From assembly GCF_005889735.1 (NCBI RefSeq), contig NZ_VCKY01000020.1, positions 1 through 64,000 on the forward strand: a stretch of DNA of 64,000 nt. The letters run 5' to 3'. This DNA comes from Nonomuraea turkmeniaca. GTDB taxonomy: Bacteria > Actinomycetota > Actinomycetes > Streptosporangiales > Streptosporangiaceae. This document shows positions 36,657-54,120 of the stretch, in pieces. Every line of letters begins with the position of its first letter. The stretch's first letter is position 1. The position numbers were made by a program, and so were the translations under genes. The notes under the pieces were generated by a model. The model searched no databases and had not been told where the DNA came from. It worked only from the letters and a program-made list of their open reading frames with translations.

Positions 36657-37388
36657 TCAGGCCGTGACACCCGCGTCGACGGGGATCGAGGCGCCCGTGA
36701 TGTGCCGGCCGCCCTCCCCGGCCAGATGGGCGACGGTGGCGGCGATGTCGTCGGGGGAGCAGTACGTGCCGAGCGCCGTGTAGCGCCGCTCCTCGTCCGC
36801 CTCCGGGGAGTCGGCCGGGTTCATGTCGGTGTCCGTGGAGCCGGGGCTGACCAGGTTCGCGGTGATGCCGCGCGGTCCGAGGTCCCTGGCCAGGCCCTTG
36901 ACGAGGCCGGTCAGCGCCGACTTGCTCATCGCGTACGCCGTCCAGCCCGGGTACGGCACCCGCTCGGCCAGGCTGCTGCCGATGAGCACGATCCTGCCGC
37001 CCCGCCCCATGTGCCGGGCGGCCGCCTGCGCCAGCACGAACGCCGCCCTGGCGTGCACGGCCAGCAGCCGGTCGACGTCGTCGAGCGTCACTTCCTCCAG
37101 CGCCCCGTACGGCGCGATCCCCGCGTTGCTCACCAGCACGTCGAGCCGTCCCAGCTCGCGTACCGTCCGCTCCACCGCCTCGACCAGCGCACCGGCGTCG
37201 GCGGCCTCCGCCCGCACGCCGAGAGCTCGCCCGCCGGCCGCCTCGACCTCCTTGGCCACGGCGGCGGCCCGGTCGCCGGCGCTCCGGTACGTGATCGCCA
37301 CGTCGAACCCGTCGCCTGCCAGCCGCCGCGCGACGGCTGCGCCGATTCCCCTGCTCCCGCCCGTGACCAGGGCGACCCTGCGTGCCAT
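36657..37388 (-). CDS. short-chain dehydrogenase/reductase
   Basis: 243 residues. Cofactor motif TGGSRGIGAAVARRL at the N-terminus, NAG at VSNAGIAPYGAL, catalytic Ser-Tyr-Lys in IGSSLAERVPYPGWTAYAMSKSA. An arginine after the first strand-turn (TYRSAGDR) suggests NADP(H). The substrate is unknown; FabG-like 3-oxoacyl reduction and xenobiotic carbonyl reduction are both possible. Divergent from a TetR-type regulator, with twin operators between them, so expression is probably induced by the TetR ligand. ATG 37388 follows GGGAGGAC. Four bases separate its end from the LCP gene. Confidence 0.88.
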   Translation of the reverse strand: MARRVALVTGGSRGIGAAVARRLAGDGFDVAITYRSAGDRAAAVAKEVEAAGGRALGVRAEAADAGALVEAVERTVRELGRLDVLVSNAGIAPYGALEEVTLDDVDRLLAVHARAAFVLAQAAARHMGRGGRIVLIGSSLAERVPYPGWTAYAMSKSALTGLVKGLARDLGPRGITANLVSPGSTDTDMNPADSPEADEERRYTALGTYCSPDDIAATVAHLAGEGGRHITGASIPVDAGVTA

Positions 37389-37405
37389 GCGTCCTCCCGA
37401 TGAAG

Positions 37406-37446
37406 CGGAATGTGTTCCGGTTAAACATTAAGCGGAATGCCTTCCG
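37406..37446. promoter_or_regulatory. twin TetR operators
   Basis: CGGAATGTGTTCCG (37406-37419) and CGGAATGCCTTCCG (37433-37446) are two near-identical palindromes spaced exactly 27 bp centre to centre, between the SDR gene and the TetR gene. Confidence 0.75.
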
Positions 37447-37491
37447 GATGCAACCGATGCCAAGATGGAGATCGTGGGAGGGTGCGAAGGT

Positions 37492-37620
37492 GGTCGTGAA
37501 GCGCGGAGATCATGACACGAAGGTGGACACCGCGAACCGCGGAGAAACTGACGCGGGGGTGGAGGTCGTGAACCGCGGAGTCGGTGACGCGGAGGTGGAG
37601 GTCGTGAAGCGCGAGCGCAC
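37492..37620 (+). repeat. 36-bp tandem repeat carrying ribosome-binding site and GTG codons
   Basis: Units 37492-37527, 37528-37563 and 37564-37599 plus a partial fourth from 37600 are diverged copies of one 36-bp sequence (12 codons, in frame with the TetR gene). Each unit brings a G-rich Shine-Dalgarno-like stretch (GGAGGTGGA in units 3 and 4) and units 1, 3 and 4 bring a following GTG. Confidence 0.8.
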
Positions 37621-38167
37621 CGACGCGGCCCGCAACCGCGCGAAGATCCTCGCCGCGGCCGAGGCCATCGTCGCCGACCGTGGGGTGGGTGGTCTGTCGA
37701 TGGCGGACGTGGCCGCGGCGGCCGGGGTCGGCGTCGGCACGCTCTACCGGCGCTTCGGAGATCGCTCCGGGTTGGCGTACGCGCTGATCGACCGGCGGGA
37801 GCGCGAGTTCCAGTCCGCCTTCATCGAGGGGCCGCCGCCGCTCGGGCCGGGCGCGGAGCCCGCCGCGCGGGCGCGCGCCTTCCTCGACGCGCTCGCGGAC
37901 CGGATGGTCGAGCAGCTCGATCTGCTGGTCATGGCGGAGACGGCGGGGCCGTTCGCCCGGTTCGGCGGCGCGTACGACGCCTACCACGGACACCTGGCGA
38001 TGCTCGTCGCGCAGTTGCGGCCGGAAGCCGACTCCGCCTGTCTGGCCGACGCGTTGCTGGCGCCCTTGGCCGCGCCGCTGCTGGCGCACCGGATCCGGGA
38101 GTGCGGGGTGGGGGTCGAGCGGGTGAAGGCCGCCCTCGGCGATCTTCTCGGCGGCCTGACCCGCTGA
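37604..38167 (+). CDS. TetR-family transcriptional regulator
   Basis: 187 residues from GTG 37604, the last start candidate. Helix-turn-helix: ILAAAEAIVADRGVGGLSMA followed by DVAAAAGVGVGTLYRRFGDR; the C-terminal ligand domain follows. The frame stays open upstream through the 36-bp repeats, with alternative GTG starts at 37568 and 37496, giving proteins 12 or 36 residues longer with a repetitive acidic/basic head. GTG 37604 has GGAGGTGGAGGTC before it and puts the DNA-binding domain at the usual distance from the N-terminus. Likely represses itself and the SDR gene through the twin operators. Confidence 0.85.
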   Translation: MKRERTDAARNRAKILAAAEAIVADRGVGGLSMADVAAAAGVGVGTLYRRFGDRSGLAYALIDRREREFQSAFIEGPPPLGPGAEPAARARAFLDALADRMVEQLDLLVMAETAGPFARFGGAYDAYHGHLAMLVAQLRPEADSACLADALLAPLAAPLLAHRIRECGVGVERVKAALGDLLGGLTR

Positions 38168-38323
38168 TCGCCGTCTGGAATACCCCCTGAGGTGGCGTGA
38201 GAGCGGGGAGTGACGAATGTTACTCTACGTGATTTTAGGGAAACATGTGAAATTTCCGGACAACTGGTGGTGGATTCTGCTAGGAAAGGGCGCGGTCCGC
38301 ATTCGTATGAGAGAGGTTCCACC

Positions 38324-39526
38324 GTGGCGCGCGACGAGAACGACAGGCCATATGAGGATGGGCAGGGTAGGTCGTTAAACCCGGAGTTGACGGGTGACGT
38401 GCTGTCGCCGCGGTGGAGCACTGACGACACCGACGAGCAGCCCGCCATCCAGGTCGTCGGCAACGAGACCTACATCATGCCGTCCGATTCGCTGACCGGT
38501 GAGCCGGTGCTGCTGGGAGACGGCCGGCGTGACCTGCTCGACGACGCCCCGGCGGCTTCGCAGGACCTGATGGGTGGCGGGCCCCGTGACCTGGGCGGCC
38601 TCAGCGGCCCGCACGACGTGCTCGGGGACCCGCTCGGCCCGCGTGACGTCCTGGGCGAGCCCGCCGGCTCCCGCGACGTGCTGGGCGACCATGCCGGTCC
38701 GCACGACATGCTCGGCGGCCACAGCGGTCCCCATGACGTCCTCGGCGACCGTGACCCTGGCGACCCGCATGACCCGTATGAGTCGGAGCACAGCGGGCCG
38801 CACCGCGTGGAGGACTCGGTCCCGTACCTGCCGCTCGACCGGAGCTATGAGGCCGGCTACGACGACGGCGAGGAGGAGCGGCCCAAGCGCGGCTTTCTCG
38901 GATCGGGGTGGACCGACGACTCCTCCGACGGGCGTTCCGGCGGCGACCGTGAGGTTCGGCGGCGTACCAGGAAGCTGCTGGTGGCGGCGGCCGCGGTGGT
39001 GCTGGTCGGCGTGGGGGCCGGATTCATGCTCACCGGCACCTCGTCGGACGACCCGTGCCAGGGCGGCCGGTGCGCCAGCGCGGGCGAGGTGACCGCGCCC
39101 TCCGACGCCGCCGTTCCCGAGGACACGCCGACCGAGGAGGACACCCCGGAGCCCGACGATTCGGCCACTGCCGAGCCGACCGATACCGAGTCCGTAAACC
39201 CCCCGCGGTCGACCCAGCGGCCGCGGCCGACCCGCGAGCCGGCCGTGCGTCCCACCTCCACCCGCGTCGGCGAGCCGACCACGAAGTCGAGCGACAACGC
39301 CACCCGGCCGCCGGTGAATCCGATGCAGGACACGAACCCGAACACGGACACAGGCACGGGCACGGGCGGCACAGGCTCGAACGGTCAGTCGTCGTCGGAC
39401 AGCAAGCAGCAGCCCACGCAGCCGCCCAGCAGCCAGCCCGCCCAGCAGCCCACCACCCAGGCGCCCGCGCCGACGCCGACCAAGGAGGAGCGTAAGGGGC
39501 TGCTCGACATCCTCTTCCCCTGGTAA
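38324..39526 (+). CDS. repeat-containing single-pass membrane protein, unknown function
   Basis: 400 residues from GTG 38324 (preceded by GAGAGGTTCC). Residues 94-143 are five ten-residue repeats of the pattern xGPHDVLGDx (38603-38752). An acidic cytoplasmic region follows, then a basic stop-transfer (RRRTRK) and one membrane helix at about 217-238 (LLVAAAAVVLVGVGAGFML). The outside part has a CQGGRC pair, then ~150 residues rich in Pro, Thr, Ser and Gln, and ends KGLLDILFPW, a short hydrophobic tip. No family was recognised. The repeats suggest a cytoplasmic docking surface, the outer part a wall-spanning stalk; both are inference. It is alone in its transcription unit with a terminator after it. 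Confidence 0.75.
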   Translation: MARDENDRPYEDGQGRSLNPELTGDVLSPRWSTDDTDEQPAIQVVGNETYIMPSDSLTGEPVLLGDGRRDLLDDAPAASQDLMGGGPRDLGGLSGPHDVLGDPLGPRDVLGEPAGSRDVLGDHAGPHDMLGGHSGPHDVLGDRDPGDPHDPYESEHSGPHRVEDSVPYLPLDRSYEAGYDDGEEERPKRGFLGSGWTDDSSDGRSGGDREVRRRTRKLLVAAAAVVLVGVGAGFMLTGTSSDDPCQGGRCASAGEVTAPSDAAVPEDTPTEEDTPEPDDSATAEPTDTESVNPPRSTQRPRPTREPAVRPTSTRVGEPTTKSSDNATRPPVNPMQDTNPNTDTGTGTGGTGSNGQSSSDSKQQPTQPPSSQPAQQPTTQAPAPTPTKEERKGLLDILFPW

Positions 39527-46665: not shown

Positions 46666-47825
46666 AGCCCGTTCACCGCCAGCAGCGCCTTCATGCGGTG
46701 CACGGCCAGCTCCTGGTCGGCCAGCAGCCCCGCCTGGTCGGCCAGGCGGAACACCTCCGACAGGTGCAGCAGCGAGCGGGCCGACTGGGCGGCGTTCACC
46801 ATGGCGAACGCGTCCTGGTGACCGTTCAGCCAGGCCAGGAAGACGATGCCGGTCTTGTAGTGGTACGTGGGCGTCTCGAAGATCTTCCGTGACAGCGGGA
46901 CCGTCGGGTCCAGGATCTCGTCGTACGCGGCCAGCAGCCGCTCACGGCCGGCCTCGTCGCAGGCCGCCTCGGCGGCGTCCAGCACCTGGAGCGCGGCCGC
47001 GGCCGCCGGGGCGATCGCGTCGAAGATGCCGAGCAACGCGTGCGAGCCGGACTTGATCAGCGACGGGTAGTTGAAGTCGTCGCCCGTGTAGAGCTTGACG
47101 CCCTCGGGGAGCGCGGCACGCAGGCGCACCTCGTGCTCCTCGTCCAGCAGCGACACCTTCACGCCGTCCACCATCGAGGCGTGGGCGTGGATCAGCTCCA
47201 GGAACGACTCGGTCGCCGCGTCCACGTCACGCGAGCCCCAGTAGCCGGCCAGCTGCGGGTCGAACATCTCGCCCAGCCAGTGCAGGATCACCGGACGGTC
47301 GGCCAGGCCGAAGAGCTTGCCGTACACCTGGTGGTAGTCCTGCGGTCCCGCGGCCACCCTGGCGAGCTGGCGGGAGGCCATGATGATCACGCCGGCGCCG
47401 GCCGACTGGACGGTCTCCAGCTGCTCGGCGTACGCGGCGGTGATGGTGTGCAGATCGGCGGCGTCGGGCGCGTGGTCGGTGCCCGCGCCGCAGGCCACCA
47501 GCGTCGCCGGGTCACCGAACGAGCGGGCCTCCGCGGCGCTGCGCCGGATGAGCTCCCTGGTCGCCGCCCAGTCCAGGCCCATGTTGCGCTGCGCGGTGTC
47601 CATCGCGTCGGCGACGCGCAGGCCGTGCGACCACAGATGGCGGCGGAAGCGCAGGGTGGCGTCCCAGTCCACGGCCGCGGGGGAGCCGGGCGTGTTGTCG
47701 CCGAGCGGGTCGGCCACCACGTGGGCGGCCGCGTACACGATGCGGCTCGTCGCCGGCGTCGCCGACACCGGCCAGACCGTCGGCTCGGCGAGCGTGTACG
47801 CGCCGGAGCCTGGCAGGTCGATCAT
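46662..47825 (-). CDS. DUF993 dihydrodipicolinate-synthase-like (aldolase superfamily) protein
   Basis: 387 residues. MIDLPGSGAYTLAEPTVWP, followed by YAAAHVVADPLGDNTPG and LRFRRHLWSHGLRVADAMDT, then DGVKVSLLDEEHEVRLR and LYTGDDFNYPSLIKSG, matches the DUF993 family of class I aldolase-like TIM barrels. The lysine in DGVKVSLLD is in the place of the Schiff-base lysine of dihydrodipicolinate synthases. Its reaction is unknown; aldol cleavage of a keto-sugar acid is an inference. The ATG overlaps the stop of the Gfo/Idh gene by one base (TGATG); GTG 47828 is an alternative. Confidence 0.85.
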   Translation of the reverse strand: MIDLPGSGAYTLAEPTVWPVSATPATSRIVYAAAHVVADPLGDNTPGSPAAVDWDATLRFRRHLWSHGLRVADAMDTAQRNMGLDWAATRELIRRSAAEARSFGDPATLVACGAGTDHAPDAADLHTITAAYAEQLETVQSAGAGVIIMASRQLARVAAGPQDYHQVYGKLFGLADRPVILHWLGEMFDPQLAGYWGSRDVDAATESFLELIHAHASMVDGVKVSLLDEEHEVRLRAALPEGVKLYTGDDFNYPSLIKSGSHALLGIFDAIAPAAAAALQVLDAAEAACDEAGRERLLAAYDEILDPTVPLSRKIFETPTYHYKTGIVFLAWLNGHQDAFAMVNAAQSARSLLHLSEVFRLADQAGLLADQELAVHRMKALLAVNGL

Positions 47826-48970
47826 CACAGCTGCGGCACCTCGATCCTGCGGCCCTCGGTGTTCGAACGCAGGCCCAGCTCGGCGAGCTGCACGCCGCGC
47901 GCGCCCGAGGCGAAGTCGTTCGGGAACGGGGCGTCCTCCACCACGTGCTTCACGAACGCCTCCCACTGGATCTTGAACCCGTTGTCGAACTCGGCGTTGT
48001 CCGGCATCTCCTGCCAGCCGTCGCGGAAGCGCGCCGTGACCGGCAGGTCCGGGTTCCAGACCGGCTTGGGCGTGGCCGAGCGGTGCTGCACGCGGCAGTT
48101 GCGCAGGCCCGCCACGGCGCTGCCGTGCGTGCCGTCCACCTGGAACTCGACCAGCTCGTCCCGGTTCACGCGGACGGTCCAGGAGGAGTTGATCTGAGCG
48201 ACGATGCCGCCTTCGAGCTCGAAAATGCCGTACGCGGCGTCGTCCGCGGTGGCCTGGTAGGTGTTGCCCTGCTCGTCCACACGCGCCGGGATGTGCGTCA
48301 CGGCGCGGGCGTAGACCGACTCGATCCGGCCGAACAGGTTCTCCATCACGTAGTGCCAGTGCGGGAACATGTCGAGCACGATGCCGCCGCCGTCCTCGGC
48401 CCGGTAGTTCCACGAGGGGCGCTGCGCCTCCTGCCAGTCGCCCTCGAACACCCAGTAGCCGAACTCGCCGCGCACCGACAGGATGCGGCCGAAGAAGCCG
48501 CCGTCGATCAGCCTCTTCAGCTTGAGCAGGCCGGGCAGGAACAGCTTGTCCTGGACCACGCCGTTCTTGACGCCCTTGGCGGTGGCGGCCTCGGCCAGCG
48601 CGACCGCCTCCTGGGTGGACTCGGCGGTCGGCTTCTCGGCGTAGATGTGCTTGCCGGCCTCGATGGCCTTCAGCACGGCCTTCACCCGGGCGCTGGTGAC
48701 CTGGGCGTCGAAGTAGATCACATTGTCGTCGTCGGCGAGGGCCGCGTCGAGGTCAGTGGTGAAATCCGAAAGTCCGTGCTTCGATGCGATATCTGCCAAT
48801 TTGTCGGCGTTTCTGCCGACCAGCACCGGCTTGAGCTTCACCCGGCTGCCGTCCGAGAGCGTCACACCGCCCTGCTCGTTGATCGCCAGGACGGACCGGA
48901 CCAAATGCTGGCGGTAGCCCATCCGTCCGGTGACGCCGTTCATGACGACGCCGATGGTGCGCACGCTCAT
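47825..48970 (-). CDS. Gfo/Idh/MocA-family oxidoreductase
   Basis: 381 residues. The NAD(P)-binding domain starts IGVVMNGVTGRMGYRQHLVR, AGKHIYAEKPTAES holds the EKP signature, and SWNYRAEDGGGIVLDMFPHW contains the catalytic region with conserved Asp and His. Members oxidise sugars, inositols or their derivatives. First gene of a three-gene operon. ATG 48970 (MSVRTIGVV, AAGGGATC before it) is chosen; the frame is open for 66 more codons upstream, but that stretch contains the operator palindrome and starts with a low-complexity MAKKGKKK sequence, so it is not part of this protein. Confidence 0.88.
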   Translation of the reverse strand: MSVRTIGVVMNGVTGRMGYRQHLVRSVLAINEQGGVTLSDGSRVKLKPVLVGRNADKLADIASKHGLSDFTTDLDAALADDDNVIYFDAQVTSARVKAVLKAIEAGKHIYAEKPTAESTQEAVALAEAATAKGVKNGVVQDKLFLPGLLKLKRLIDGGFFGRILSVRGEFGYWVFEGDWQEAQRPSWNYRAEDGGGIVLDMFPHWHYVMENLFGRIESVYARAVTHIPARVDEQGNTYQATADDAAYGIFELEGGIVAQINSSWTVRVNRDELVEFQVDGTHGSAVAGLRNCRVQHRSATPKPVWNPDLPVTARFRDGWQEMPDNAEFDNGFKIQWEAFVKHVVEDAPFPNDFASGARGVQLAELGLRSNTEGRRIEVPQL

Positions 48971-48998
48971 TGAGGATCCCTTCAGGTCAAACAGGTGC

Positions 48999-49012
48999 GG
49001 AAAGCGCTTTCC
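48999..49012. promoter_or_regulatory. perfect LacI-type palindrome before the Gfo/Idh operon
   Basis: GGAAAGCGCTTTCC is an exact 14-bp palindrome 29 bases before the Gfo/Idh start. It matches the site before the LacI gene (39766) in 13 of 14 positions. Confidence 0.85.
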
Positions 49013-49193
49013 CGAACCGTACGGCCGTCCCGCCGGGGGCGTCAAGTAGGCCTTGGTCACAGCGTACGGAGCGGACCGCTTCCCAAGCATCGTGCCCCGC
49101 CGCACGGCGCCCTTCCAGCCGCCGGTCGACTCGCGGGCGACCTGCTTCTTCTTGCCCTTCTTCGCCATCCGCCCGATCAGGTACGCGACACGT

Positions 49194-49392: not shown

Positions 49393-49542
49393 GCCCTGCT
49401 CATGGTCGCGCTCGCACGGGGCTCCGCTGGTCACGCAAGCTACCGCTCTCCGCCCCAGGCTCGCCGCGCCCTGCTCATGGTCGCGCTCGCACGGGGCTCC
49501 GCTGGTCACGCAAGCTACCGCTCTCCGCCCCAGGCTCGCCGC
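49393..49542. repeat. exact 75-bp tandem duplication
   Basis: 49393-49467 is repeated base for base at 49468-49542. The unit length is a multiple of three, but no gene covers it. It lies 54 bases downstream of the RNase D stop codon. Confidence 0.9.
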
Positions 49543-49595: not shown

Positions 49596-50828
49596 TCATG
49601 AAAGGGGCTCGCCGCGGACCTCCAGGCGGGACAGGGCCTTGGCAAGGGGGTGGGCCGTGAGGGACAGCTGCCATTCGCGGGCGCCCAGTTCGCGCAGCCG
49701 CGCGGTGACCGTCTCGTCCGTGATCTCGTCCGGCGGCTCCCACGTCAGCCGCCGCACCGCGTCCGGCTGCAGCAGGTTCTCCGTCGGCATGTGGTGCTCG
49801 TCGGCCAGGGCGGCCACCACGGCGCGCGCCGCCGCCAGGCGTTTGGCGGCGGCCGGGTCGCGGTCGGCCCAGCGGTTGGGCGGCGGCGGACCGTCGCCGG
49901 GTGTGCTGGGCTGGGGGAGCTGGTTGTCGGGCAGGTTGCGGGCCCGGTTCACGGCGGCGAGCCAGTCGGTCATGTGGCGGCGCGCGCTGCGCCCGGTGAA
50001 AGCCGAAATTTCCGTCAAAGCCTTCTTGGTGCGCGGCCCTTCGAGCGCGGCCGTGATGATCGCCGCATCGGGCAGCACCCGGCCGGGCGCGAGGTCGGCC
50101 TCGCGGGCGAGCCGATCACGCATGGTCCACAACTCGCGCACGATGGCCAGCGCCCGCACGTTGCGTACCTTGTGAATGCCCGACGTACGCCGCCACGGGT
50201 CGGAGCGGGGCATCGGCGGCGGGGTGTCGAGCACGGCGGCGAACTCCTCGCGCGCCCACTCCAGCTTCCCGCTCTCCGTCAGCTCCCCGTGGAGCGCGTC
50301 CCGCAGCTCGACCAGCACCTCCACGTCGAGCGCCGCGTACCGCAGCCAATCCTCGGGCAGCGGCCTGGTCGACCAGTCGGCGGCCGAGTGGCCCTTCTCC
50401 AGCCGCAGCCCGAGCACGGTCTCGACCATGGTGCCGAGTCCCACTCGTTCGTAGCCGAGCAGCCGTCCCGCCAGCTCGGTGTCGAACATCTCGCGCGGCC
50501 GGAACCCCACCTCCAGCAGGCAGGGCAGGTCCTGCGAGGCGGCGTGCAGCACGATCTCGGCGTCGGCCACGGCCGCGTCGAGCGCGGCCAGGTCGGGGCA
50601 GCCGATCGGGTCGATCAACGCGGTCCCGGCACCGGCCCGGCGCAGCTGCACGAGGTAGGCGCGGTTGCCGTAGCGGTAGCCCGAGGCACGCTCGGCGTCG
50701 ACCGCCACCGGGCCGCTGCCCGAGGCGAACCGCTCCACGACCATGGCGAGGCCGGCCGCGTCCGCGATCACCGGCGGGATGCCCTCGCGCGGTTCGAGCA
50801 GGGGCTCGACGGTACGTTCTTCTGTCAT
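49596..50828 (-). CDS. rnd: ribonuclease D with HRDC domain
   Basis: 410 residues. The 3'-5' exonuclease domain (20-210) shows the DEDDy residues: VAVDAERASG, LHAASQDLPCLLEVG, MFDTELAGRLLGYERVG and LRYAALDVEVLVELRD. The HRDC RNA/DNA-binding domain follows at about 225-305 (VRNVRALAIVRELWTMRDRL). It trims structured RNAs such as tRNA precursors. The neighbour DUF3000 gene 45 bases upstream and hemE beyond it are a conserved actinobacterial grouping. Confidence 0.93.
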   Translation of the reverse strand: MTEERTVEPLLEPREGIPPVIADAAGLAMVVERFASGSGPVAVDAERASGYRYGNRAYLVQLRRAGAGTALIDPIGCPDLAALDAAVADAEIVLHAASQDLPCLLEVGFRPREMFDTELAGRLLGYERVGLGTMVETVLGLRLEKGHSAADWSTRPLPEDWLRYAALDVEVLVELRDALHGELTESGKLEWAREEFAAVLDTPPPMPRSDPWRRTSGIHKVRNVRALAIVRELWTMRDRLAREADLAPGRVLPDAAIITAALEGPRTKKALTEISAFTGRSARRHMTDWLAAVNRARNLPDNQLPQPSTPGDGPPPPNRWADRDPAAAKRLAAARAVVAALADEHHMPTENLLQPDAVRRLTWEPPDEITDETVTARLRELGAREWQLSLTAHPLAKALSRLEVRGEPLS

Positions 50829-52058: not shown

Positions 52059-53087
52059 GTGAATCTCGCCGACTCAGCGTTCCTGCGTGCCTGCCGCCGC
52101 CAGCCCGTTCCGCACACCCCGGTCTGGTACATGCGCCAGGCCGGCCGGTCGCTGCCGGAATACCTGAAAGTGCGCGAGGGCGTGCCGATGCTCACCGCCT
52201 GCGCGACGCCGGACCTCATCGTCGAGATCACCATGCAGCCGGTCCGCCGGTACGCCGTGGACGCGGCCATCTACTTCAGCGACATCGTGGTGCCGCTCAA
52301 GGCCATCGGCGTCGACCTCGACATCAAGCCGGGCGTCGGGCCCGTGGTCGCCGACCCGATCCGCGACGCCAAGGGGCTCGAGGCGCTGCGCCCGCTGGAG
52401 CCCGACGACGAGCCGTTCGTCACCGAGTCCATCCGGGCGCTGACCGGCGAGCTGGGCGGCACGCCGCTGATCGGGTTCGCCGGGGCGCCGTTCACGCTCG
52501 GCTCCTACCTGATCGAGGGCGGCCCGTCCAAGAACCACGACCGGACCAAGGCCATGATGTACGGCGCCCCGGAGTTGTGGCACGAGCTGATGGAGCGGCT
52601 GTCCGGGATCGTGCTGGAGCACCTGCGCATCCAGATCGCGGCGGGCGCCTCGGCCGTGCAGCTCTTCGACTCCTGGGTGGGGGCGGTGGCGCCGGACGAC
52701 TACCGGGAGTTCATCCTGCCGCACACCCGGCGGATCTTCGAGGGCGTCGAGGGCGTCCCGCGCATCCACTTCGGCGTGGGCACCGGCGAGCTGCTCGGCG
52801 TGCTCGGGGAGGCCGGCGCCGACGTGGTGGGGGTCGACTGGCGGGTGCCGCTGGACGAGGCCGCCCGCCGGGTCGGGCCAGGCAAGGCGCTGCAGGGCAA
52901 CCTGGACCCCGCCATTCTTCTGGCGCCCTGGGAGGTCGTCGAGCGCAAGGCCCGCGAAGTGCTGCGGCGGGGGCGGGCGGCCGAAGGGCACGTGTTCAAC
53001 CTGGGGCACGGTGTGCTCCCCTCGACCGACCCCGACCAGCTCAAGCGCCTCACCGACCTGGTCCACGAGTTCACCCCCGACTCCTGA
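52059..53087 (+). CDS. hemE: uroporphyrinogen III decarboxylase
   Basis: 342 residues. [15 protein letters not shown] is the N-terminal signature with the substrate-binding arginines; [34 protein letters not shown] and [14 protein letters not shown] (histidine-containing) complete the active site. It decarboxylates uroporphyrinogen III to coproporphyrinogen III, the branch point of heme synthesis. GTG start at 52059. Together with hemG and hemQ downstream it supplies the coproporphyrin-dependent heme route, although a minus-strand lipoprotein gene lies between. Confidence 0.96.
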
Positions 53088-53120
53088 CGCCTGGCCTCGG
53101 CCAGGCGGGTCCCCGGGTCC

Positions 53121-53190
53121 GGGTTGGGTCAGGCGGTTTCCGGGTCCGGGTCGCCGGGTTGGGTCAGGCGGTTTCCGGGCCCGGGTCGCC
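53121..53190. repeat. 35-bp tandem repeat spanning the DUF4349 stop codon
   Basis: 53121-53155 and 53156-53190 are two copies differing at one position. The stop codon of the DUF4349 gene (53164-53166) lies in the second copy, so the coding end has been duplicated into the spacer. Confidence 0.85.
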
Positions 53191-54120
53191 GGGGCGCGGG
53201 CCCGGCGGGGGCGTCGGGATCCGCGGGCGGCGGGCCCGGTCGCGGCGGACCAAGTAGACCAGCAGCGCCACCAGAGGCAGCGCGGCGATCGTCCACGGCA
53301 GCAACGCTCCCAGCACCGTGAGCACCACCTTCGTGAACGACACCAGCCCGTTCCACCCTGACTTGAGTCCTCCGAGGAACCCGGCAGGCTCCTCCTCCGG
53401 CTCCTCCACGACCGCGACCGGCCCGAACAGCTGAAGCGTCAGCGTGGCCATGGACACCTGGGCGGCCAGCTCCTTCTGCTGCGCCTGCAGCGACTCGAGG
53501 TCGGCCTCCCGGGTGGAGATCTCCCGCTCGACCTGCAGCACCTGCCCGATCGTGTCGGCCCGCTTCAGCAGCGAACGCAGCGACTCCAGCGCCTGCTCGG
53601 CCGACTTCAGCCGGCTGTTGACGTCGGCTATCCGCAACGTGACGTCCTGGGTGGTCTGGTTCATGGAGAGCTGTATGCCCAGGTCCTTGCCAAGCCGCTC
53701 CAGCACCCCGCCGTACCCGTTCGGCGGGATCTTGAACTCCAGCGTCGCCGAGTCCCGGGAGTCGTTGGCCGAGCTGCTCTCCTCCTTGGACAGGTACCCG
53801 CCGGCCGTGGTCACGATCTGCTTGGCCTGCGCGACGGCCGTGGCGACCTTCTTGACCCGCACGGACATGCTGCCGGTGTAGATGACCTGCCGATTCTGCT
53901 GGGTCACCTTGACGTTGGAGACGATGCCGTCTCCGCCGGTCTGCTGGGGCTTGGCCTGCTCCTGGACGGCCTGGTCCCGAACGGCGGTCTCGGGCTCGCT
54001 CAACGACGCGGGTGCAGGTGCCGCACCCGATTGCTCGGTCGCGAACCCGCCCCCGCAGCCCGTCAGGAGCAGGACGCCGCAGGCGGCCGATAACGCGATG
54101 CCGTACCGGATTCTTCTCAT
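53164..54120 (-). CDS. DUF4349 lipoprotein
   Basis: 318 residues. Signal peptide with lipobox LLLTGCGGG. The DUF4349 domain (about 75-240) has IYTGSMSVRVKKVATAVAQA, AGGYLSKEESS and a long coiled coil (DVNSRLKSAEQALESLRSLL, EREISTREADLESLQAQQ). It ends with a hydrophobic helix (VVLTVLGALLPWTIAALPLV) and a basic Pro-rich tail. Surface-exposed and membrane-tethered at both ends; function unknown. Located between convergent hemE and divergent hemG. Confidence 0.88.
   Translation of the reverse strand: MRRIRYGIALSAACGVLLLTGCGGGFATEQSGAAPAPASLSEPETAVRDQAVQEQAKPQQTGGDGIVSNVKVTQQNRQVIYTGSMSVRVKKVATAVAQAKQIVTTAGGYLSKEESSSANDSRDSATLEFKIPPNGYGGVLERLGKDLGIQLSMNQTTQDVTLRIADVNSRLKSAEQALESLRSLLKRADTIGQVLQVEREISTREADLESLQAQQKELAAQVSMATLTLQLFGPVAVVEEPEEEPAGFLGGLKSGWNGLVSFTKVVLTVLGALLPWTIAALPLVALLVYLVRRDRARRPRIPTPPPGPRPGDPGPETA

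Follow-up and report, generated by a model that had tools for sequence, protein, structure and literature searches.

A 36-bp tandem array at the translation start of a TetR-family regulator gene in Nonomuraea, downstream of an older and probably leaderless start

The window is the whole stretch of DNA that we analyzed, 64,000 nucleotides of a Nonomuraea turkmeniaca contig. Within it, a TetR-family regulator gene and a divergent short-chain dehydrogenase (SDR) gene flank a region that holds two palindromes, a predicted promoter, two short open reading frames (ORFs) and a tandem array with Shine-Dalgarno (SD) blocks:

36657–37388, minus strand: divergent SDR gene (Pfam adh_short_C2, 3.2e-53)
37406–37419, no strand: palindrome CGGAA-N4-TTCCG, likely TetR operator 1 (from sequence and conservation)
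37433–37446, no strand: palindrome CGGAA-N4-TTCCG, likely TetR operator 2 (from sequence and conservation)
37461–37466, plus strand: predicted −10 box CAAGAT of the TetR promoter, at the place of a matching box in 27 of 30 non-clade relatives
37474–37515, plus strand: old start GTG 37474 and its 13-codon ORF, out of the TetR frame; its TGA (37513–37515) overlaps ATG 37512
37493–37528, plus strand: repeat unit 1, in-frame GTG 37496 with SD (−11.6 kcal/mol)
37512–37571, plus strand: second short ORF of 19 codons with a weak SD, ending in a TGA that overlaps GTG 37568 (TetR frame)
37529–37564, plus strand: repeat unit 2, GCG where a start codon is expected
37565–37600, plus strand: repeat unit 3, in-frame GTG 37568 with SD (−13.3 kcal/mol)
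37591–37597, plus strand: Shine-Dalgarno GGAGGTG, 6 nt before GTG 37604 (from sequence)
37601–37636, plus strand: repeat unit 4, the conserved TetR start region (from unit and leader comparisons)
37604–38167, plus strand: TetR-family regulator, 187 aa (Pfam TetR_N), with its predicted conserved start at GTG 37604

The regulator carries the TetR_N helix-turn-helix domain (PF00440, 3.7e-12, 46.3 bits against a cutoff of 24), and its orthologues at loci L009–L028 and L038–L046 show 69–92% identity. We searched 54 Nonomuraea genomes, one per species and including the window's own, and obtained a match at E≤1e-60 in 31 of them. The leader comparison covered 38 loci (L001, L009–L028 and L038–L054), reduced to 35 by removing L047, L048 and L052, repeat genomes with the same leaders as L009, L010 and L046; paralogues and distant homologues (L002–L008, L029–L037 and L055–L126) were excluded from the leader counts. 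All 35 loci had an SDR match beside TetR, within 334 bp of it (in L050 the match spans residues 81–243 only). Two strict copies of CGGAA-N4-TTCCG were found upstream of TetR in 30 of the 35 distinct loci and a single strict copy in L014, L038, L045 and L054; L026 had no strict palindrome, with near-matches present. The two palindromes are likely operators, through which TetR probably represses its own gene and the divergent SDR gene.

The first-pass annotation had described a minisatellite of 36-bp units in frame with TetR, most of them carrying an SD and a GTG, and both statements were borne out. TRF called a 36-bp period at 37492–37613 (3.4 copies, 73% matches, score 133 in the window) and made a second call of the same period at 37492–37628 (3.8 copies, score 116). 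None of 500 dinucleotide shuffles of 37389–37660 reached a score of 133, the top shuffle score being 61, and self-identity at lag 36 was 79 of 124 positions versus 25 of 125 at lag 35 and 26 of 123 at lag 37. Four 36-bp units cover 37493–37636, starting at 37493, 37529, 37565 and 37601, all in the TetR frame. By eye, a unit consists of about 24 nt similar to TetR's opening codons plus a 12-nt SD block, and a GTG stands behind a purine-rich block in three of the four (units 1, 3 and 4). The earlier description needs amending on two points: unit 4 is nothing other than the conserved start region of TetR, and pairwise identity among the units, whose period was given correctly, is only 19–28/36 (53–78%).

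We surveyed 864 kb of background sequence, consisting of forty 20-kb stretches of the related genomes G075 and G068 together with the window. The survey returned 165 arrays with a period of at least 9 and a score of at least 50, and since 30 of these scored at least 133, the score of the window array is ordinary for the genus. What is unusual about the window array is its position on a start codon. By crude criteria, 13 survey rows had at least two SD-start-like modules. The seven of these rows that we looked at (score at least 70, at least 2.5 copies) represent six distinct arrays including the window's; among the other five, L149 and L161 each hold one that is well within a coding-like ORF, L142 holds one in the gap between two coding-like ORFs that diverge from it, and the remaining two are in L157. 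The commonness of arrays with such scores favors a plain reading of the locus as neutral slippage in the leader, in which only GTG 37604 matters and the other starts have no role. This reading draws further support from unit 2, which has no start codon, and from RNA folding, where the leader exceeded its shuffles only slightly in stability (z=−1.87) and the start region did not clearly do so (z=−0.52). On the same fold values we rejected an RNA structure that hides the SD. A dispersed element was rejected as well: a search of the window's genome (G000) for a second copy of 37474–37604 returned none at E≤0.01, the next-best match having E=0.029 over 29 bp, and a short match on contig C43 (L129) lay in a stretch unlike a TetR leader.

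The neutral reading is opposed by the strong SDs in three of the four units. We computed SD duplex energies with a tail that we take to be the anti-SD sequence and ranked them against 3000 random RTGs from the window. GTG 37604 ranked highest of the candidates (−14.2 kcal/mol, 0.4 percentile), followed by GTG 37568 (−13.3 kcal/mol, 0.8 percentile) and GTG 37496 (−11.6 kcal/mol, 2.3 percentile); ATG 37512 had a weak SD (17.7 percentile) and the old GTG 37474 a poor one (−6.1 kcal/mol, 30.4 percentile). We infer that GTG 37604 is the best predicted TetR start in the window, with 37568 and 37496 as weaker in-frame alternatives.

A tree built from TetR (minus its first residues) and SDR placed the window, G019, G075, G068 and G007 in one clade (support 98/99), within which G019 and G075 are sisters (100/99). 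We then scored each leader for a −10-like hexamer followed by an RTG, downstream of the second palindrome. With hexamer forms that were chosen after the sequences had been seen and that include a relaxed box, 27 of the 30 non-clade relatives showed a −10-like box 6–7 nt ahead of a GTG whose frame runs open into TetR, compared with 1.36 of 30 expected from shuffles; the strict form TANNNT accounted for 17 of the 30 (0.66 expected) and the relaxed form for 10, and L019, L043 and L044 did not fit the layout. Inside the clade, the layout opened TetR in none of the five loci. In the window, the predicted −10 box is followed at a spacing of 7 nt by GTG 37474. As judged from the sequences compared, the palindromes, the predicted −10 place and the GTG behind it have been kept across relatives. 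There is good support for this GTG being the older TetR start, and it was probably leaderless just before the clade arose. According to the available text of one study (PMC3160421), leaderless genes are marked by TA-like signals about 12 bp ahead of their start, and Actinobacteria are the most notable group. The first-pass annotation placed the array correctly and missed this older start, which lies outside its coordinates and out of the TetR frame.

The ten relaxed-box loci (AAGGAT, CAGGAT, GAGGAT), which belong to some of the clade's closest relatives, bear on whether the ancestor was instead already SD-led. In that case the AAGGAT/CAGGAT box would be an SD (AAGGA, AGGA), the promoter would lie further upstream, and the clade would only have moved its start downstream. 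These ten nearest layout-bearing relatives have no strict TANNNT at the −10 place, and all show SD-like energies before the GTG (−7.1 to −14.6 kcal/mol), as an SD-led ancestor would predict. However, in most of the ten the box lies 13–16 nt from the second palindrome, like the TANNNT of most other lineages, several TANNNT lineages are without a strong SD-like sequence, and the window's own old GTG has a poor SD. We consider an SD-led ancestor unlikely. SD strength itself could not serve as proof of a switch to SD-led initiation and was set aside, because the energies before the conserved start overlap between clade (−7.8 to −14.2 kcal/mol) and non-clade loci (−1.5 to −22.2 kcal/mol).

Two further observations concern the non-clade relatives. 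In L044 (G067), the SD ahead of an ATG is very strong, at −22.2 kcal/mol for the conserved start region, which suggests a separate move to an SD-led start. In addition, eleven lineages (L017, L018, L021, L022, L045, L046, L049, L050, L051, L053 and L054) have a predicted start GTG 18–90 nt upstream in frame, giving predicted TetR heads of 6–30 aa in leaders without any array.

An insertion behind the old start was found only in the five-species Nonomuraea clade. In the alignment of the five clade leaders, extra sequence separates the conserved −10 region from the conserved TetR codons, so that the place of the old start lies about 37–130 nt before the TetR start. The old GTG is kept in four of the five loci, 130 nt (window), 75 nt (G019), 97 nt (G075) and 38 nt (G007) before that start, and in each its frame ends at a TGA inside an RTGA. 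In G068, GTC replaces the old GTG, and TetR is predicted to start with an ATG preceded by an SD of −11.7 kcal/mol. In the window and G007, 7 nt separate the −10 box from the GTG. In G019 and G075 the gap measures 11 nt, and the old GTG there also has SD-like energies of −12.1 and −13.2 kcal/mol, respectively; given the 11-nt gap and these energies, the old GTG may not be leaderless in the two sisters. At the same place as the window array, TRF called a 20-bp array of 3.0 copies in G019 and a 22-bp array of 4.0 copies in G075; it called no array at a score of at least 30 in the insertions of G007 and G068. Because the unit lengths differ (36 versus 20/22 bp), the start has probably been multiplied at least twice. 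A second small repeat, of GATC behind the −10 box, also lengthens the 5′ leader (L001, L010, L009, L038, L039): the window and L010 have a single GATC, L009 has two (GGTCGATC in L038) and L039 has three.

Our preferred reading, to which we give slightly better than even chances, is that the array arose, in this clade alone, by tandem duplication of the repressor's translation-start module, that an older and probably leaderless start lies upstream of it, and that TetR has moved to an SD-led start. The copied module would comprise the SD block, the GTG and the first ~8 codons. In the window, SD-led initiation at GTG 37604 would account for most of the TetR, and a minor share would begin at 37568 (+12 aa) and perhaps at 37496 (+36 aa, a head predicted to be disordered). 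Ribosomes entering at GTG 37474 would terminate on ATG 37512 after 13 codons; if they re-initiated there, they would reach the TGA on GTG 37568 and pass into TetR. The simplest account of the extra copies is that they are a by-product of slippage in the purine-rich leader and are tolerated because the last start has an SD of its own. Neutral slippage that leaves the other starts without any role is otherwise compatible with this preferred reading; separate amplification of the same start twice in one clade speaks against it, and we rate it as possible but well short of an even chance. Two separate expansions within the clade could reflect selection rather than a by-product.

The overlaps between short ORFs suggest a different use of the leader, a relay in which ribosomes enter at the old GTG and re-initiate on overlapping starts, once or several times, until they reach TetR, so that the array sets the amount of repressor. 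The ORF from GTG 37474 is short (13 codons, under 50) and not in the TetR frame; its TGA overlaps ATG 37512, from which the second ORF leads to GTG 37568. The corresponding paths of RTGA overlaps, in positions relative to the TetR start, run −75, −40, −20, 0 in G019, −97, −77, 0 in G075 and −38, 0 in G007, the only clade member in which the TGA of the first ORF overlaps the TetR start directly. In G019, each of two 20-bp units is a 7-codon ORF that ends on the next GTG. In favor of a relay, the ORF of the old GTG closes at a TGA within an RTGA in each of the four members that retain it, and following the overlaps reaches TetR in all four; RTGA-coupled leaderless small ORFs are also over-represented in mycobacteria, according to the available part of PMC4633059. 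Against this, 5000 shuffles per leader gave a TetR-frame path, direct or coupled, in 57% of cases for the window, 68% for G019, 40% for G075 and 99% for G007, although in the G019 shuffles only about 3% had a coupled path, the remainder being direct fusions. Because shuffles often yield comparable paths, in most of the species, selection for an RTGA chain is unproven and we do not claim it. The four species are moreover not independent, the old start has been lost in G068, and ATG 37512 in the window has a weak SD. We regard the relay as doubtful. In an extended version, the minisatellite is self-similar, each unit combining an SD, an RTG and an overlapping stop, a form that the two 20-bp units of G019 show, so that ribosomes from the 5′ start would be handed on to the repressor even when copies are added. 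Its copy number would be a translational dial for an autoregulated repressor, evolved when a leaderless gene gained a leader; this version appears to us quite unlikely.

The first-pass annotation had also proposed that the in-frame starts compete, that copy number changes the length of the N-terminal head without breaking the frame, and that the repeat is thereby a phase-variable tuning of the repressor. Some features agree with this: three good SD-GTG modules are in frame, a 36-bp unit preserves the frame, and other head lengths are predicted elsewhere, with GTGs at −60 or −90 in L022, L046 and L053. The expected change in copy number was partly recovered, in that copies differ between species (3.0 in G019, 4.0 in G075). 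The frame-keeping variation in head length did not hold up, since the 20- and 22-bp units of the sister arrays are not multiples of three and head length is thus not what varies in G019 and G075. Units that are 53–78% identical make hypervariability unlikely, and they appear too diverged for frequent slippage. For phase variation as a contingency switch we thus found no support, and with diverged units and frame-breaking sister arrays we rejected it as the main reading; the competing-start model as a whole is very unlikely in our assessment.

Nor did the head show signs of being kept as protein, as neither codon position nor synonymous change is favored between units. Differences between units fall on all three codon positions, and the six pairwise unit comparisons, which are not independent of one another, contained 1 synonymous and 41 non-synonymous changed codons. 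In the AlphaFold model of the protein read from 37496, in which the conserved start is residue 37, residues 1–28 have pLDDT below 50 and a helix begins at residue 30. A functional repeated protein head was rejected on the missing synonymous bias and the low pLDDT of residues 1–28.

Phase-variable repeats at the starts of pathogen genes have short, near-perfect units in frame with alternative start codons. The window array resembles these in that its units are in frame with alternative start codons, and differs in its long, degenerate units (19–28/36). Further parallels come from mycobacteria, for which we draw on the available text of three reports. The first describes leaderless small ORFs whose RTGA overlap couples them to the gene that follows (Shell et al. 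2015, PMC4633059). The window shares with that arrangement a predicted leaderless RTG, a short ORF and a TGA overlapping a start, and in G007 (L010) the overlapped start is TetR's own; unlike it, the window has two intervening short ORFs, its last stop overlaps an upstream in-frame start rather than the predicted main one, and its first short ORF appears to derive from the gene's own old start and is predicted to be leaderless. In the second, MIRUs, which are interspersed and apparently mobile, sit at a start codon with an internal ORF coupled to the gene at −4 nt spacing (PMC12548453). The window repeat likewise sits at a start codon, but a single copy of the leader was found in the genome and the units resemble TetR's own start. 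In the third, the repeat length of a MIRU-VNTR upstream of Mtb-fpg1 correlates with mRNA level, and copy number varies between isolates of one species (PMC2734929). Both are tandem repeats that end at a start codon and occur in one clade only (PMC2734929); the window comparison is between species, with one genome each, and the available text on Mtb-fpg1 mentions no SD-GTG module like that of the window array (PMC2734929).

A literature search on start-site tandem repeats, MIRU coupling, duplication of leaderless starts, and leaderless or TetR genes in Nonomuraea gave nothing on this locus or this evolutionary path among the matches listed, with subscription journals thinly covered. The loci form a natural series, from relatives with the old start through a 37–38-nt insertion to 20/22- and 36-bp arrays and one loss of the old start. 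Under the preferred reading, this series would show how a probably leaderless gene can come to use an SD-led start through duplication of its own start region. The leaders are also ready-made constructs for studying how ribosomes may be handed over by overlapping short ORFs in actinomycetes. Should the copies prove inert, the array would be an ordinary leader repeat.

Three other tandem repeats were noticed in the window, two of them beside genes named by eye. A 30-bp repeat of 4.9 copies (38605–38750) lies inside ORF 38210–39526, where it encodes SGPHDVLGD-type repeats, and this ORF has one likely membrane segment by eye. A perfect 75-bp duplication (49393–49542, 100% matches) lies between a Gfo/Idh-like ORF (47825–49168, minus strand) and an RNase D-like ORF (49596–50828, minus strand). 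Finally, a 35-bp repeat of 2.4 copies with 91% matches (53112–53193) is located at the convergent ends of a HemE-like ORF (52059–53087, plus strand) and a lipoprotein-like ORF (53164–54120, minus strand).
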